Origin: Auricularia sp. M13
Taxonomy: Eukaryota > Basidiomycota > Agaricomycetes > Auriculariales > Auriculariaceae
Assembly: GCA_037042915.1 (NCBI GenBank)
Contig: CM073202.1
Location: 1,240,001 to 1,304,000, forward strand
Direction: 5' to 3'
DNA length: 64,000 nucleotides
In this document: positions 23,601-55,322 of the stretch, in pieces
How the letters are laid out: every line of letters begins with the position of its first letter
How positions within the stretch are numbered: position 1 is the stretch's first letter
Notes under the pieces: generated by a model
Told to the model about the DNA's origin: nothing
Seen by the model: only the letters and a program-made list of their open reading frames with translations
Databases searched by the model: none
Program-made: the position numbers and the translations under genes

Positions 23601-26243
23601 ATGACGGCGCTGGACGCGCTGCAAAGAAATGCGACACGGCTGACCGAGCGCATACAAGAGTCGCTGTCGGAGAGCACGCGGGGGACGTTTGGCGCCGGGC
23701 GGTCGCTGGACGCGCTGGACGCGGGCGACGAGCGGCTGGGCACGATCAGGAAGCAGCTCGACTCGCGCGCCGACGCGGACAAGCTGGACGCAATGCGGCG
23801 GCTCATCGCAGCGGTGTCCAAGGGCCGCAACGTGTCCGCGTTCTTCCCGGACGTCGTCAAGAACGTCGTGTCGGGCAACCTCGAGGTCCGCAAGCTCGTC
23901 TACATCTTCCTCATCCGCCACGCCGAGTCCGAGCCCGACCTCGCCCTGCTCTCCGTCAACACGTTCCAGAAGGACCTCGCTGACCCCAACCCGCTCATCC
24001 GCGCAATGGCCCTGCGCGTCCTCAGCAGCATCCGCGTCCCCATGATTGCCAGCATCGTCGCCCTGGCCATCAAGAAGGCCGCAGCGGACACCAGCCCGTA
24101 TGTTCGCAAGGCCGCAGCGCTGGCCATTCCCAAGTGCTTTAGGTAACTGTCTCCATGCTGCTAGACTGGGTCTCACCATTATTATTGCAGTCTCGACACG
24201 TCGCAGCAGTCCGTGTTGCTCGCCATCCTCACCCCCATGCTGGCAGACCGCTCGCCCTTGGCGGTGGGCAGTGTGGCGACCGCGTTCAACGCGTTATGTC
24301 CCGAGAGACTCGACCTCTTGCATCCCCATTTCCGCCGGCTGTCGCGCTTACTGGTCGACGTCGACGAATGGGGACAGATTGTCCTGCTGGACCTTCTCGC
24401 GCGGTATGCACGAACCATGCTCGCGCGGCCGCCTTCAGACGAGGTGAGCATATGTCTTTATCCTTAAAAACAGTGCTACAACAGCGTACACAGTCCGGTG
24501 TAATGGATCCAGACCTGCAACTCCTCCTCACGTCCTCAGAACCGCTCTTCGCCTCCCGCAACGCAGCAGTCGTCCTGGCCGTCACGCGCGCATACTACTA
24601 CCTCGCCCCGCCCTCCCAAACCTACCTCACGAAGCCCATCCTCCCTCTTCTCCGCCTCCTGCACCAGTCCCCAGAAATCTGCGCAACGGTCTGCGCGGAC
24701 CTCGGCCTGCTCGCGCGCGAGCACCCGGAGCTGCTCGTGCCGCACGTGCACCGCTTCTACGTGCGCGCGGACGACCTGCCCTCCGCGGCGCTGGAGAAGC
24801 TGCGCATACTGTCCGCCATCGTCGACTGCGCGCCGGAGCACGCGCCCGCGCTGCTGCGCGAGTTCGAGCACCACACGCGCTCGCCCGATGAGCGGCTCGT
24901 GCGCGCCGCCGTGCGCGCCGTCGGCCGCGTCGCGGCCAACGTCCCGGAGTGCACGATGCAGTGCGTCGCGCTGTTGCTTAAATTCATCCAGGATTCCTAC
25001 GGTGCGCGGCCCAGATACCGCTGGCTCGCTAAATGTCTAATATTGAATATGGCGTCGCAGCTCCTTTGGTGACGAGTGCCATCTTGGCCCTTAAGACGCT
25101 CGTGCAGACGCAGAAGGCCAAGGACGTCGTGCCCCGTCTTGCCGAGCGGCTGCAAGACATTCGCGACGGGCGCGCAAGGGCCTGTGTCGTGTGGCTAGTT
25201 GGCCAGTATGACGAGCCGTCGTCCAGCGGGCGCGACTTTGCGCCAGACGTCTTGCGGCTTGTGGCCCGTGGCTTCACGAGTGAGGTACGAAGTGGCATAA
25301 TGTCTTCCTGGAAATGGGCATACTGACAAGGATTCAGGCGTCGCAGACGAAACTTGCAGCATTGACACTCGCGGCAAAGCTGCTGTCGCGCGACGGCGCG
25401 CCGGGGAGCCTGCACCCCGCCATCCAGCCGCTCGCGGGCTACGTCTTCGCATTGGCCCACTACGACGCGGACGTCGACGTGCGCGACCGCGCGCGCACGC
25501 TCTCCGCGCTCGTCGAGCGCGCCGGGCTGATCAAGCCCGCCGCCATCCTCCCTTCCACCAACTCCGAGCCAGACGAAGACGCCTGGCGGACCGGCGCCGC
25601 GGCGGACTACCCGTCGGACCACCCCGACGAGCCGACGGGCGTCGTGTTGCGCGCGGAACAGGTGCGCCTGGTGCTGCGCTCGGGGAAGCACGTGCCGAGC
25701 GAGGCGCCGCTGTGGCCCGCCGGCGCGGACGCCGTGCGCGCGCTCGGCTCGCTCGCGCTGATGACCGGGCGCCACATGGGCGCGAGCCGGCTGCTGCCCG
25801 AATGGCCCGACGAGGGCACCGACGGCGCGTTGCGCGACGTGCCCGAGGAGCGGCCCGTCACGCCGCTCGGCTTCGTCCCGCGCGCGTTTGGCAATACCGC
25901 CAGCGCGGGCGGGCTGGCGTCGCCGCTCCCCGCGATGCAGCTCCCCGCGACGCCGACGAGTGCTGTGGAGCGCAAGGGCCCGTGGAGGGATTTGGACGAG
26001 TTTTATGCGGACGCGGAGGAGGGGAGTGAGGAGGAGGAGGAGGAGGAGGAGGAGGAGGAAGAGAGTGAGGAGGAAGAGAGTGAGGAAGAGGATGCTGGTG
26101 CAAGCGCGCCGCTCGTCGGTGCCGCCACTGCCGTTGCCGCTGCCGCCGTGGCAGAAAGCGAGGAAGAGGAGTCGGAAGATGACGACGACAGTGGCACCGA
26201 GGATGATGAAGCGACGGACGATCCCCATCGGGCTTACAGATAG
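23601..26243 (+). CDS. APL6: AP-3 adaptor complex beta subunit
   Basis: AP-3 sorts cargo from Golgi or endosomes to the vacuole. Exons 23601-24142, 24191-24443, 24494-25001, 25061-25284 and 25338-26243 join in frame to 810 aa, about the size of yeast Apl6. The trunk is adaptin-like HEAT repeats: MRRLIAAVSKGRNVSAFFPD, VVKNVVSGNLEVRKLVYIFL, IRHAESEPDLALLSVNTFQK, DLADPNPLIRAMALRVLSSI and SPYVRKAAALAIPKCF. These are hallmark beta-adaptin blocks, and the RxxAALAIPK segment favours AP-3. The C-terminal hinge is a run of Glu/Ser (26020-26100 and 26150-26220), a common acidic, phosphorylatable feature of AP-3 beta. No ear domain follows, as in many fungal Apl6 proteins. Confidence 0.9.
26026..26092 (+). 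repeat. GAG-rich microsatellite coding poly-Glu
   Basis: A near-pure (GAG/GAA)n tract inside APL6 encodes the acidic hinge. It is likely to vary in length between strains. Confidence 0.7.
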
Positions 26244-26326: not shown

Positions 26327-28083
26327 CTAAGATACAGTCGCTCCGAGTGCCTCGGCAAACCGCAGAGCATACCTGCGTACCTCGCCAGGATGCCCCATAA
26401 CTGTCAGCCGAACATCGCAATCCTTCTGCAGCGCGTCGCTGTCACTGTCCAGCGGTGTAAGGTCGAATCGGCCAAAAGCCCAGTTGAGGATGAATGTGCG
26501 CGTCACAGACTTCGAGTCCGTTAGACGGACGAAACCCTTGACGCGGTACACCGAGTCTTTCGGGAGCGGCCAGAGCGCAGCTGAGAGCCCGGACCGTGTC
26601 AACTGCGGTTTTGCGGGTTCTGGTGCGTGTGCGGATGGTGGTGTTGGTGGTGCTGGAACGTGCGCGCCGGAACACGTCTCACATGCGACACCCAACGGCG
26701 CACAGATGTCGCACGGTTGCACAACGGGCGTGGGTGCAGCAGGTTTTGTGTGCGCGCCGGCGCACGTCTCGCATGCCTCGCCCAACGGTGCACAGATATC
26801 GCACGGCGCGACCTTCGCGAGTGCAGGCTTTGCTGCTGGCGGGGGCGATGGTGCAGCGGCGGAGGTAGGAGACACGACGCGGGATGGGCCTGCGCACGTC
26901 TCACACGCTTCTCCCAGCGGCGCACATATGTCGCACGGCTGGACCTTCGCAGGTTTTGGTATCGCGGTCGTTGTTGGCACAACAGGCTTGCTCGTGGCGC
27001 TGCACATTTCGCAAGCCTCGCCGAACGGCGCGCATATTTCGCACGCCTGGCCTTTGGGCGCGGACGGGCTTTGCGCCGCTTTCGACGCGCATGCGCAGTT
27101 TGGACCACAGCTACCTCCGCTGCCTTTGGCGTGTGTATGGCTATGGGGCGAAGGCTCGGAGGAGCCACGCGACACCGTCACAGTGCCAATTTCGTCGTTG
27201 TGCGTTGCGTCCTGCATGAATGCGCTGAGGTCTGCCGTGGCTGCGAGCTTCGAGTCCAGGTTGAACACCAAGGAAGGCGAGACGCCTTGCCGGCCGTTCG
27301 TCTTGATTTTGGGCGTAAGGTCATTGAGCGTGTACACATCATCGAGGACGCGATCGAGCGCGTCTTCCGAAAGCTATGAGGCGCATCAATACTGTATCCA
27401 CTTCCTTGTAGCAGAGCAAAACTGACGCTTTCCCATTTATTCTGAACGACCTGCGTCAGACTCGCAATTCGGTGACACGAAGCAACGCGGTACTCACGAG
27501 GAGGATGACATCCGAGAATTGCGCCTGCATTTTTGCAGTAGGCGAGGTGTCCTCGAAGCCCTTGAAGTTTTCGCAGTCGACAACTGTGACCACGGCGTCG
27601 AGTGCGAAGGCGCCGTCTGTCTCGCGCGCGAGTTCGCGAACTTGCAACACCAGTGGCGCGGGGAACGCGCTCCCGCTCGTCTCGATAATGATCCTATCTG
27701 GGTTGTACGACTCGCGGATTTCTTGGAGGGCGTGTTTCATGCGCCCGATGAGCACGCAGCACCTAAGGTCGGTGAACATGAGATGGCCCGTTCGCAAGGC
27801 GATCTGCAATGTACCACTCACATGCAGCCATTCAGAATCTCGCTGACTGCAGTTAGCGACGATTGTCGTGCAAGCTGGCTGTCAACTATAAGCACACAAG
27901 TGCCTTATCAGCCTTAGTTGTACGTGGAAATTCGGACCACTACGCGCCTTCGACGTCGCCGAACTCATTTTTGAGCAGCACACATTTATAGCCTTGAGGA
28001 AGTTGCGGCAGTAACGAGAGGATAATGCTCGTCTTGCCAGCGCCAAGAAATCCAGTAAAGATAGTAACTTGAATGGGGGCCAT
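26327..28083 (-). CDS. COG0523/CobW-type GTPase metallochaperone with Cys-repeat insert
   Basis: Exons 28083-27948, 27885-27822, 27762-27498, 27441-27427 (15 nt) and 27373-26327 give 508 aa. COG0523 GTPases deliver metals, often zinc, to client enzymes. Seen: Walker A FTGFLGAGKTS near residue 10, the family metal motif NGCMCC (CxCC) created by splicing, IIIETSGSAFPAPL (Walker B/switch), VVTVVDCENF, LLNKWE (G4-like NK) and a CobW_C domain (VYRVKGFVRLTD ... FILNWAFGRFDL ... LTVMGHPGEVRRYALRFAEA). Between GTPase and C-domain lies a long Pro-rich insert with a His/Cys segment (HSHTHAKGSGGSCGPNCACA) and four copies of CDICAPLGEACETC. Other family members usually carry a His-rich loop here. The first intron has GC-AG borders (gcgcgt). 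Metal and client are unknown. Confidence 0.9.
26672..27043 (-). repeat. Four 42-nt coding repeats (CxxC-x6-CxxC units)
   Basis: Units at 27043-27002, 26935-26894, 26803-26762 and 26713-26672 encode CEICAPFGEACEMC, CDICAPLGEACETC (twice) and CDICAPLGVACETC, separated by 16-30 residue Pro/Ala linkers. Start-to-start spacing is 108, 132 and 90 nt, so linkers vary while the units hold. Confidence 0.9.
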
Positions 28084-28617
28084 GAAGGGCAATGCGAAGG
28101 ATGTGGATGCTGTAGGTGGAAGGAAAAGGAAAAGATCAAGCCACCGGCTTACGCAGACGCAGGTTCCGCGCCACAGCTTATCAGATATCCCGATATCGGC
28201 GATGGCAAGTCAATCCGTCTTTGGGCTCCTCCAGATCTCAAAGCTTTGCATCTCCCAGCCTCCCATTGACATATAGCACACACCACAGAGAATTCACTCG
28301 CCAACCCACACCGAGTCTGCATACGCTGTTCATGGTCCCATGGACAAATACTCTCACCTAAGCTCACCCACAGGAAAGGACAAGAATTCATGGATCCGGG
28401 CCAACGACTCTGACCGCTGCCACGTGCATTATTAGTAGATAGCTGATAAAGCGGTCGAGAACTGCGTTGAGGTCCGCTAGCAATTTACGGCAAGCTCACG
28501 GCTATTCACTTTGAAGCGAACGATTTCAGCTGCTCGAGGGTACGGATTAACGCATGTGCATGGTGCATTGATCGCATAGACGTAGGACAAGCAAGCTACC
28601 CGCAGTGCAACACGTAT
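28084..28617. other. Gap between COG0523 and uS10 genes
   Basis: About 530 bp form the upstream region of the COG0523 gene and the 3' side of uS10. No exon or repeat was recognised. Confidence 0.35.
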
Positions 28618-29159
28618 TTAGCTGCTGGCGATGGTGACCTCGACCTCGACACCGGGCTCGAGCGAGATGCTCGTCTATCCGTCGGTCAGAGTCTGATAAT
28701 AAGGTTTTACTGTAGGCACGCACGATCTGCTTCACGATCTCGGACGAAGAGTGGAGGTCGATGAGGCGCTTGTGCACCTTGAGCTCGTAGCGGTCCCAGG
28801 TCTTGGAACCCTCACCGCAAGGCTGCAAGCATCACAAAAATGATCAGCAAGTTGCAAGGCAACGACAGCTGGTAGTACGCACCGTCTTACGGGTGGTGAT
28901 CTTGAGGACCTTGGTCGGGAGGCGGACGGGGCCCTTGACGCGGAGCTGCTTGTCCTTTGCACGGTTCACGAGGTCGCCGCAGACTGTAAACCGGATGAGT
29001 CCTACAGCCCACACGGGACTCTACACAGACCCACTCACACTTCTCGAGGTTCTTGACGTTGGAGCTCGTGAGCGTAATCCGGATTTTGTGGATCTTGGGC
29101 GCGGGCACCGGCGCGCCAGTCGCATCGTATTCCTTTTCGCCCTTCGCGACGTAGCTCAT
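28618..29159 (-). CDS. RPS20: 40S ribosomal protein S20 (uS10)
   Basis: This is a component of the 40S head in the cytosolic ribosome. Exons read [40 protein letters not shown], then [60 protein letters not shown] and, after a last intron, [18 protein letters not shown] and a TAA stop at 28618. The uS10 signature ([31 protein letters not shown]) is complete. The N-terminus is slightly longer than in yeast. Three introns are seen. Upstream, a GT-AG intron between about 29188 and 29250 seems to lie in the 5' leader, common in fungal ribosomal protein genes. Confidence 0.93.
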
Positions 29160-54017: not shown

Positions 54018-55322
54018 ATGACGCACCTGCTGCCGCCCAACCTGCTCAAGCTGTTCGCGCCGCGGCCGCCGCTGCCGTACATGCGGCCGCTGGACAAGGA
54101 TGTGAACCGGGTCCGGCCAAAACACATGGATGGCGTCGCCGACATCCTCGCCCGCGTGCGCGAGGAGAACGCGCTGGGCAACGGCGTCGGCAAGCGCGGC
54201 GACGACACGGCCATGGAGGAGGGCGAGGAGGTCGAGGAGCCGTTCACGCTCGCCGAGGAGTACCGGCGCCAGGTCCGCCGCGAGGAGCGGAGAAAACGCA
54301 AGGAGGAAGAGTTCCAGCGCGCAAAGGCGTCTTGTGCGTGTGCCTGGCGTCTTGTTCGCTGCTCTGTGGCCATGACCTGACTGCCAACCCCCCGCAGACA
54401 AGCCGTCCGAGGACCCCGAGGCCGTCGGCGACCCGTACAAGACGCTATTCATCGCCAGACTAGTCCGTGCACGTCGCTCTAGCGCGGCCTGTTGTCTGAC
54501 CCCGTCTGCAGAGCAAAAATGCCACAGACTCCGACCTGCGGCGCGCGTTCGAGCAGTACGGCCCGATCGAGCGCGTCCGCATCGCGCGCGACAAGAAAGG
54601 TAGGAGCAGAGGGTATGCATTCATCGTTTTCGATCGCGAGCGCGACATGAAAGGTAAATGCCATTCCCTGCACCTGCCTGCCGCAAGTGTGTGCCAGAAA
54701 AGACGGTGAGTATTGACACCTTGCAGTCGCTTACAAGGAGGCAGACAAAATGGTCGTCCTCGGTAAGGCTATCCTCGTCGACGTCGAGCGCGGCCGCACA
54801 GTGCGCGACTGGAAGCCTCGCCGCCTGGGCGGTGGCCTGGGCGGCCGCAAGAAGCCAGAGCCTGCCCCCGCCTTCTTTGGCGGGGGCGGTCCTCCCCGCG
54901 GCGGCTTCGGGGGCCCTCCACGCGGTGGCGGCTTTCGGGGTGGTCCGCCTGGCGGCGGGGGGCGCGGTGGGTTCCGCGGTGGAGGCGGAGACCGTGGCTT
55001 TTCAGGTGGGTACGGAGGCCCGCCAGGAGGCGGCGGTGGGTTTGGTCCGCCGGACAGAGGCTACGGCGACCGCAGTTTTCGAGGCGGAGGAGGAGGCGAC
55101 CGCGGCAGCGGCGGCTTCAGGTCAGTCGTTATCGCCGTTGCAAATTCCCGTCGCTGCTGACACGCTGGCCCGTGTTTCAGAGGAGGGGGCATCGGCTACC
55201 AGGGCGGCGGCTTCAACGGTCCTCCTGGTGCGGATGCCAACGGTTACGGTGGCGGCGACTCGCTCAAGCGCGACGCGGCCGGCTTTGACGACCGGGACGC
55301 GAAACGGATGCGTAGGTATTAG
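54018..55322 (+). CDS. SNP1: U1 snRNP 70-kDa protein
   Basis: U1-70K binds stem-loop I of U1 snRNA and helps define 5' splice sites. It starts [20 protein letters not shown], the invariant family opening, followed by [20 protein letters not shown] and a charged helix ([20 protein letters not shown]). After an intron, [17 protein letters not shown] begins the RRM; RNP1 is [17 protein letters not shown] and the RNP2-like strand is [30 protein letters not shown] follows, as in all U1-70K proteins. The C-terminus is a long Gly/Arg/Phe-rich tail ([15 protein letters not shown] and similar) ending DAKRMRRY. At least five introns are seen. The RGG-type tail replaces the RS/RD-rich tail of animals. 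Confidence 0.92.

Follow-up and report, generated by a model that had tools for sequence, protein, structure and literature searches.

A COG0523 GTPase gene with an inter-domain insert

The window, which is the whole stretch of 64,000 nucleotides analysed here, carries an entire COG0523 GTPase gene on its minus strand (26327..28083). The start ATG is at 28083 and the stop codon ends at 26327, and these are exactly the limits that the sequence-only reading had given to the gene. The gene model was built by hand and is a prediction. Five exons (28083-27948, 27885-27822, 27762-27498, 27441-27427, and 27373-26327) are joined into a frame of 508 aa without a stop codon, and the four introns between them (27947-27886, 27821-27763, 27497-27442, and 27426-27374, minus strand) are 62, 59, 56, and 53 nt long. 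Introns 2 to 4 have GT-AG ends. Intron 1 is a GC-AG intron in the model that retains EVDSQLA; E. coli YjiA reads SVDDQL at the same place. With a GT-AG alternative for intron 1, VDS is replaced by GA and the rest of the protein is unaltered.

The previous assignment of the protein to the COG0523 GTPases is borne out by the match to Pfam cobW (E 5.1e-43), by the core motifs, and by YjiA as the closest relative of solved structure (E 9.7e-22). The GTPase (cobW) domain, as delimited by Pfam, spans aa 6-179 (27317..28068, minus strand). It contains Walker A (GFLGAGKT), Walker B (IIIETSG, for hhhExxG), and NKWE (for NKx[DE]); the COG0523 motif list used for comparison is that of PMC12584730. The CxCC metal motif, NGCMCC at aa 64-69 (27756..27832, minus strand), had also been recognized before. 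Its codons are split by intron 2, so that it is formed by splicing, and it aligns with NGCICC of YjiA. At the other end of the protein, a CobW_C-like domain (aa 412-488; 26390..26620, minus strand) includes RVK as the RxK motif. It scores 17.3 bits against the Pfam cut-off of 22 bits; the whole end of the protein, RVK included, can be aligned to the C-terminal region of a COG0523 protein without insert from Candidatus Dojkabacteria (L018, 2501-3025).

Between these two domains lies an insert of about 180 residues (about aa 235-410; 26623..27151, minus strand). The extra residues fall between TVTVSRGSS and the C-domain. Alignments with YjiA and with the Dojkabacteria protein, neither of which has a counterpart of it, place the insert between the GTPase and CobW_C-like parts, as had been proposed. 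It is rich in Pro and Ala (33 P and 36 A among 189 residues), with 19 Cys and 6 His among the same 189 residues. For the His-rich sequence that an MchB type would have in its C-terminal half, the sole candidate is HSHTH (aa 237-241; 27131..27145, minus strand). It is followed by CGPNCAC (aa 249-255; 27089..27109, minus strand); a His/Cys-rich segment in the insert had also been noticed in the sequence-only reading.

The upstream neighbour, on the same minus strand (28550-28831), matches ribosomal protein S10p/S20e with an E-value of 2.9e-8. No zinc-response-like element (ACCTTNAAGGT, with up to two mismatches) is found between the gene and this neighbour. Over the window, such elements match 17 times against 15.7 expected; this is chance level, and the element was rejected as a candidate. 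Downstream, a convergent frame on the plus strand (25287-26243) has a long Glu-rich acidic tail and a sub-threshold match to Adaptin_N (E 0.0058); it is perhaps an adaptor-complex beta subunit. An antisense open frame of 364 aa runs over the repeated units on the plus strand (26331-27425). It is probably a by-product of G+C-rich codons, and was set aside since the minus strand carries both the exons of the GTPase and the CobW_C-like end. The genome is 52 Mb in size, in 14 contigs. It gives one match for hydrophobin, with a stop codon inside, and 16 matches for the class II peroxidase extension family, a gene content that suggests a basidiomycete living by wood decay.

Four Cys units and their sequence constraint

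The insert contains four units of 14 residues with the pattern CxxC-x6-CxxC. In the spliced translation, on the minus strand, unit 1 is CEICAPFGEACEMC at aa 271 (27002..27043), unit 2 is CDICAPLGEACETC at aa 307 (26894..26935), unit 3 is again CDICAPLGEACETC at aa 351 (26762..26803), and unit 4 is CDICAPLGVACETC at aa 381 (26672..26713). Relative to the two identical units, one of the others differs at one residue and the other at three. All 16 Cys are intact over the four units. The invariant residues are C, I, C, A, P, G, A, C, E, and C, six of which (I, A, P, G, A, and E) are not Cys. Successive units are separated by spacers of 22, 30, and 16 residues. The sequence-only reading had described four near-identical tandem units; four near-identical copies of 14 residues are indeed present, but with these spacers they are not strictly tandem. 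The units are absent from the list returned by Tandem Repeats Finder.

The pattern is rare by chance in a sequence of this composition. When the insert's own residues were shuffled 20,000 times, 19,748 shuffles had no unit, 246 had one, 6 had two, and 0 had more. Over all six reading frames of the window, CxxC-x6-CxxC occurs five times, four of them in this gene. The fifth occurrence (54043-54084, plus strand) has other residues that are unrelated to those of the array units.

Units 2 and 3 differ by eight synonymous codons and by no amino acid. When the six unit pairs, which are not independent, are pooled, differences amount to 38.5 of 52.0 synonymous sites (pS 0.74, a saturated value that dates nothing) and 13.5 of 200.0 non-synonymous sites (pN 0.07). 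The pN is 0.10 when the Cys codons are left out, which was done because the units had been found by them. The flanks were compared gap-free, as they are not truly alignable, with pN 0.50 and pS 0.72 for the 14 codons before each unit and pN 0.54 and pS 0.60 for the 14 codons after. The pN of the units is thus about one seventh of that of the linkers, at similar pS. With pS near saturation, and with a pN of 0.07 where the flanks have 0.50-0.54, the units are best regarded as old copies under constraint, whose shared protein sequence was preserved as the linkers drifted. At the level of sequence, this contrast is the strongest evidence for units acting as modules. Recent slippage or assembly duplication is ruled out by the near-saturated synonymous sites between units and by the shuffles.

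The AlphaFold2 model of the array, predicted from the single sequence, has a mean pLDDT of 57.2. The blocks assigned to units show 58-74 and those assigned to linkers 41-51, where the assignment of units to blocks is ours. Each unit is modelled with two short helical turns at low confidence, which lends weak support to metal binding by the units. The model of the last exon is poor (mean pLDDT 41).

Paralogs, prokaryotic relatives, and distribution of the unit

A search of the genome for cobW found three loci, including the window gene. One of the other two (L012) has matches to cobW and CobW_C and no match to a more specific model; we take it to be ZNG1/MchA-like. The other (L011) is matched by the ZigA model in two exons. 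It also has an acidic stretch and the terminal sequence DDHDHDHDHEH, and acidic and terminal His stretches are described for MchC (PMC12584730). By its sequence, L011 looks MchC/ZigA-like. Because L011 looks MchC/ZigA-like and L012 is presumably ZNG1/MchA-like, the window protein is tentatively assigned by elimination to the MchB type, with which it was compared through the published description only.

The unit is confined to this gene in the genome as searched. A single unit as the query, with the best candidates scored, matched four times in the 52 Mb, always inside this gene. The whole array, with the best candidates scored, matched beyond the gene in two unconvincing places (E 0.24 and 0.74) with stop codons inside. 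The whole protein as a query of prokaryotic genomes gave 6 pattern stretches, none of which was confirmed. Array searches of viral contigs gave 4, 4, and 456 pattern stretches, again with none confirmed, and an array search of plasmids gave no match. In PDB, the array had no match and the unit profile had one irrelevant 7-residue match. Pfam had no accepted match for the Cys unit. Membership in the Rubicon homology domain (PF13901) was rejected, as the insert scores 18.5 bits against a cut-off of 28.1 and covers 19 of 206 model positions. The statement that no described COG0523 protein has this array agrees with the open-access literature as partially listed, in which no COG0523 protein with such a Cys4 array was found. 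The array may be common within its order.

A scan of prokaryotic genomes with the GTPase domain confirmed at least 524 relatives. The best 80 were all examined; this sample is biased by the search pattern and includes no fungi. The CxxC-x6-CxxC unit is present in 0 of these best 80. Any CxxC after residue 175 is seen in 1 of the 80 (L046), beside a run of X. Weak negatives are included in these counts: 4 of the 80 extend for fewer than 80 residues beyond residue 175, and X is present in 4. At least 15 His after residue 175 are found in 43 of the best 80. In some relatives Cys and His occur together, as in L062, where CTCGCH lies inside a His-rich loop. After the GTPase match, 54 His are counted in L078 (Eubacterium MAG) and 45 His in L070 (Lachnospiraceae MAG). 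L078 consists of recurring HGHHHEEHGHEHEA-like stretches, a His counterpart to a repeat-built metal loop.

In a FastTree phylogeny of 83 GTPase domains (79 of the 80 relatives, YjiA, the window protein, and two paralog composites; the 160-residue L042 was dropped for its length), the window protein pairs with the Dojkabacteria protein L018 with a support of 0.995. Their GTPase domains are 45% identical. L018 is by this tree an unexpected nearest prokaryotic relative, and it is the nearest among the fetched sequences only.

Possible function of the array and comparison with known systems

The insert is regarded as a probable metal loop because it is placed where relatives bear His-rich metal loops: 43 of the 80 prokaryotic relatives above are rich in His, a His-rich region is reported for about 40% of COG0523 proteins (PMC2770081), and in plant ZNG2 the inter-domain part contains His stretches (PMC10642216). 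The sequence is read most economically, and most probably, as one in which each unit binds metal: two CxxC knuckles lie six residues apart with a fixed P and G between them. The same spacing, Cys-X2-Cys-X6-Cys-X2-Cys, is found in Ssu72, where a review calls it zinc-binding (PMC8038829). Three observations make zinc the favoured metal: YjiA in its GTP-bound form prefers Zn, with a Kd of 3.3e-12 M (PMC7895991); the COG0523 protein MigC coordinates Zn through the three cysteines of CxCC and one further ligand that is not a thiolate (PMC12208494); and the mch genes of A. fumigatus are induced under zinc limitation (PMC12584730).

We consider it about an even chance (roughly 0.5) that the protein is an MchB-type metallochaperone whose inter-domain loop is a tether of four Cys4 metal-capturing beads. 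We infer the binding of metal, its identity as zinc, the one ion per unit, and any transfer step. Of the ideas in the sequence-only reading, up to four putative extra four-Cys sites is the one we prefer, and a store or sensor, tuned by repeat number, is a more speculative proposal. In the place where relatives often have a His-rich metal loop, this protein would have a loop of four Cys4 beads and a short patch of His and Cys. The individual CxxC-x6-CxxC units would fold into small hairpins, in each of which four thiolates would bind a single metal ion, probably Zn(II). The flexible Pro/Ala linkers would leave the beads free to move next to the GTP-gated CxCC site, and the array would catch metal and keep it near that site. 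The metal would then be handed to the CxCC site or to a client by thiol exchange or upon oxidation of the bead. Zn(Cys)4 sites usually bind with a better than picomolar affinity, and so more tightly than the YjiA site. A plain downhill transfer from bead to CxCC is therefore doubtful, and exchange or oxidative release would be required.

A more specific form of this reading is only tentatively suggested. The array would be a four-site Zn(Cys)4 magazine, which loads when zinc is plentiful and from which oxidation releases zinc to the GTP-gated CxCC site; the number of beads would set its capacity and vary among fungal lineages. If this were true, the metal supply of clients would be coupled to the redox state.

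The main rival to metal capture and delivery is that the units are structural zinc knuckles which dock a client or a partner and whose metal is permanent and never handed on. It is the main rival because residues other than Cys are also kept: at six such positions the four units all have the same residue, which exceeds the needs of metal binding alone. The Rubicon homology domain binds zinc and a partner GTPase, and the insert weakly resembles a short Cys stretch of this domain (E 0.0019, 18.5 bits, in four stretches). This resemblance is, however, under the family cut-off of 28.1 bits, single units give E 0.12 or nothing, and no partner is known. Docking is possible, but we consider it unlikely.

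It is less likely again that the units serve as a redox switch, in which oxidized CxxC pairs form disulfides and release the metal or alter domain contacts, so that metal supply tracks the redox state. The pairing of CxxC fits this. In A. fumigatus, the mchB deletion mutant does not show the rise of ROS that zinc deficiency otherwise brings, and its sensitivity to H2O2 is raised under zinc limitation (PMC12584730); a redox-gated store is worth considering because MchB is linked there to ROS and H2O2 sensitivity. Against the switch, the window protein is assigned to MchB only by elimination, MchB is described as His-rich in that source, and the effect of the deletion may have another cause. Sequestration of a metal such as Cu(I) or Cd, as by a metallothionein fused to the chaperone, would suit the 19 Cys among 189 residues. 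Metallothioneins have a dense CxC pattern, unlike the regular Cys4 spacing and the kept P and G of these units, and this explanation is quite improbable. A functionless low-complexity linker or duplication artefact, for which the Pro/Ala-rich composition and the low-confidence structure prediction could be cited, is the least credible of all, as the pN of the units is about one seventh of that of the linkers at similar pS, and as neither drift nor an assembly duplicate yields eight synonymous and zero amino-acid differences between units 2 and 3.

Metal capture by four Cys4 beads, the preferred reading, can be compared with several known systems. YjiA, the closest solved relative, has the same CxCC and the same domain order, but is without the insert. 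The Rubicon homology domain is similar in one short Cys stretch, but below the cut-off and over 19 of 206 model positions. HypB of Bradyrhizobium japonicum is analogous in its working, since this G3E GTPase carries its own multi-metal store, with 18 Ni per dimer (PMC2770081). Its store is, in contrast, based on His, N-terminal, and one for nickel, and HypB belongs to another subfamily. For Arabidopsis ZNG1, a flexible Cys-rich loop was proposed for direct Zn transfer (PMC10642216). ZNG1 is of another subfamily, whose gene in this genome is presumably the ZNG1-like L012, and no repeat array is described for it in the available text of that paper. MchB of A. fumigatus is one of three fungal COG0523 types, the other two of which seem to be present in this genome, and it has a region of metal type in its C-terminal half (PMC12584730). 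That region is described in the same source as His-rich, not Cys-rich.

The His-rich loops of ZNG2, CobW, and other COG0523 proteins are likewise presumed metal stretches outside the GTPase domain, inter-domain in the case of ZNG2, but they consist of His stretches instead of Cys4 units. A metal loop between the domains is thus already known, though His-rich, and a Cys loop is not new as a general concept either. Within this known family, a loop of putative Cys4 beads is a new variant. The metal loops described for COG0523 proteins in the papers considered are His-rich, with roles little tested. An array of Cys4 beads would be a tighter, redox-sensitive type of loop fused to the GTPase, and its countable, constrained units make the question of what such loops do testable directly, unit by unit.
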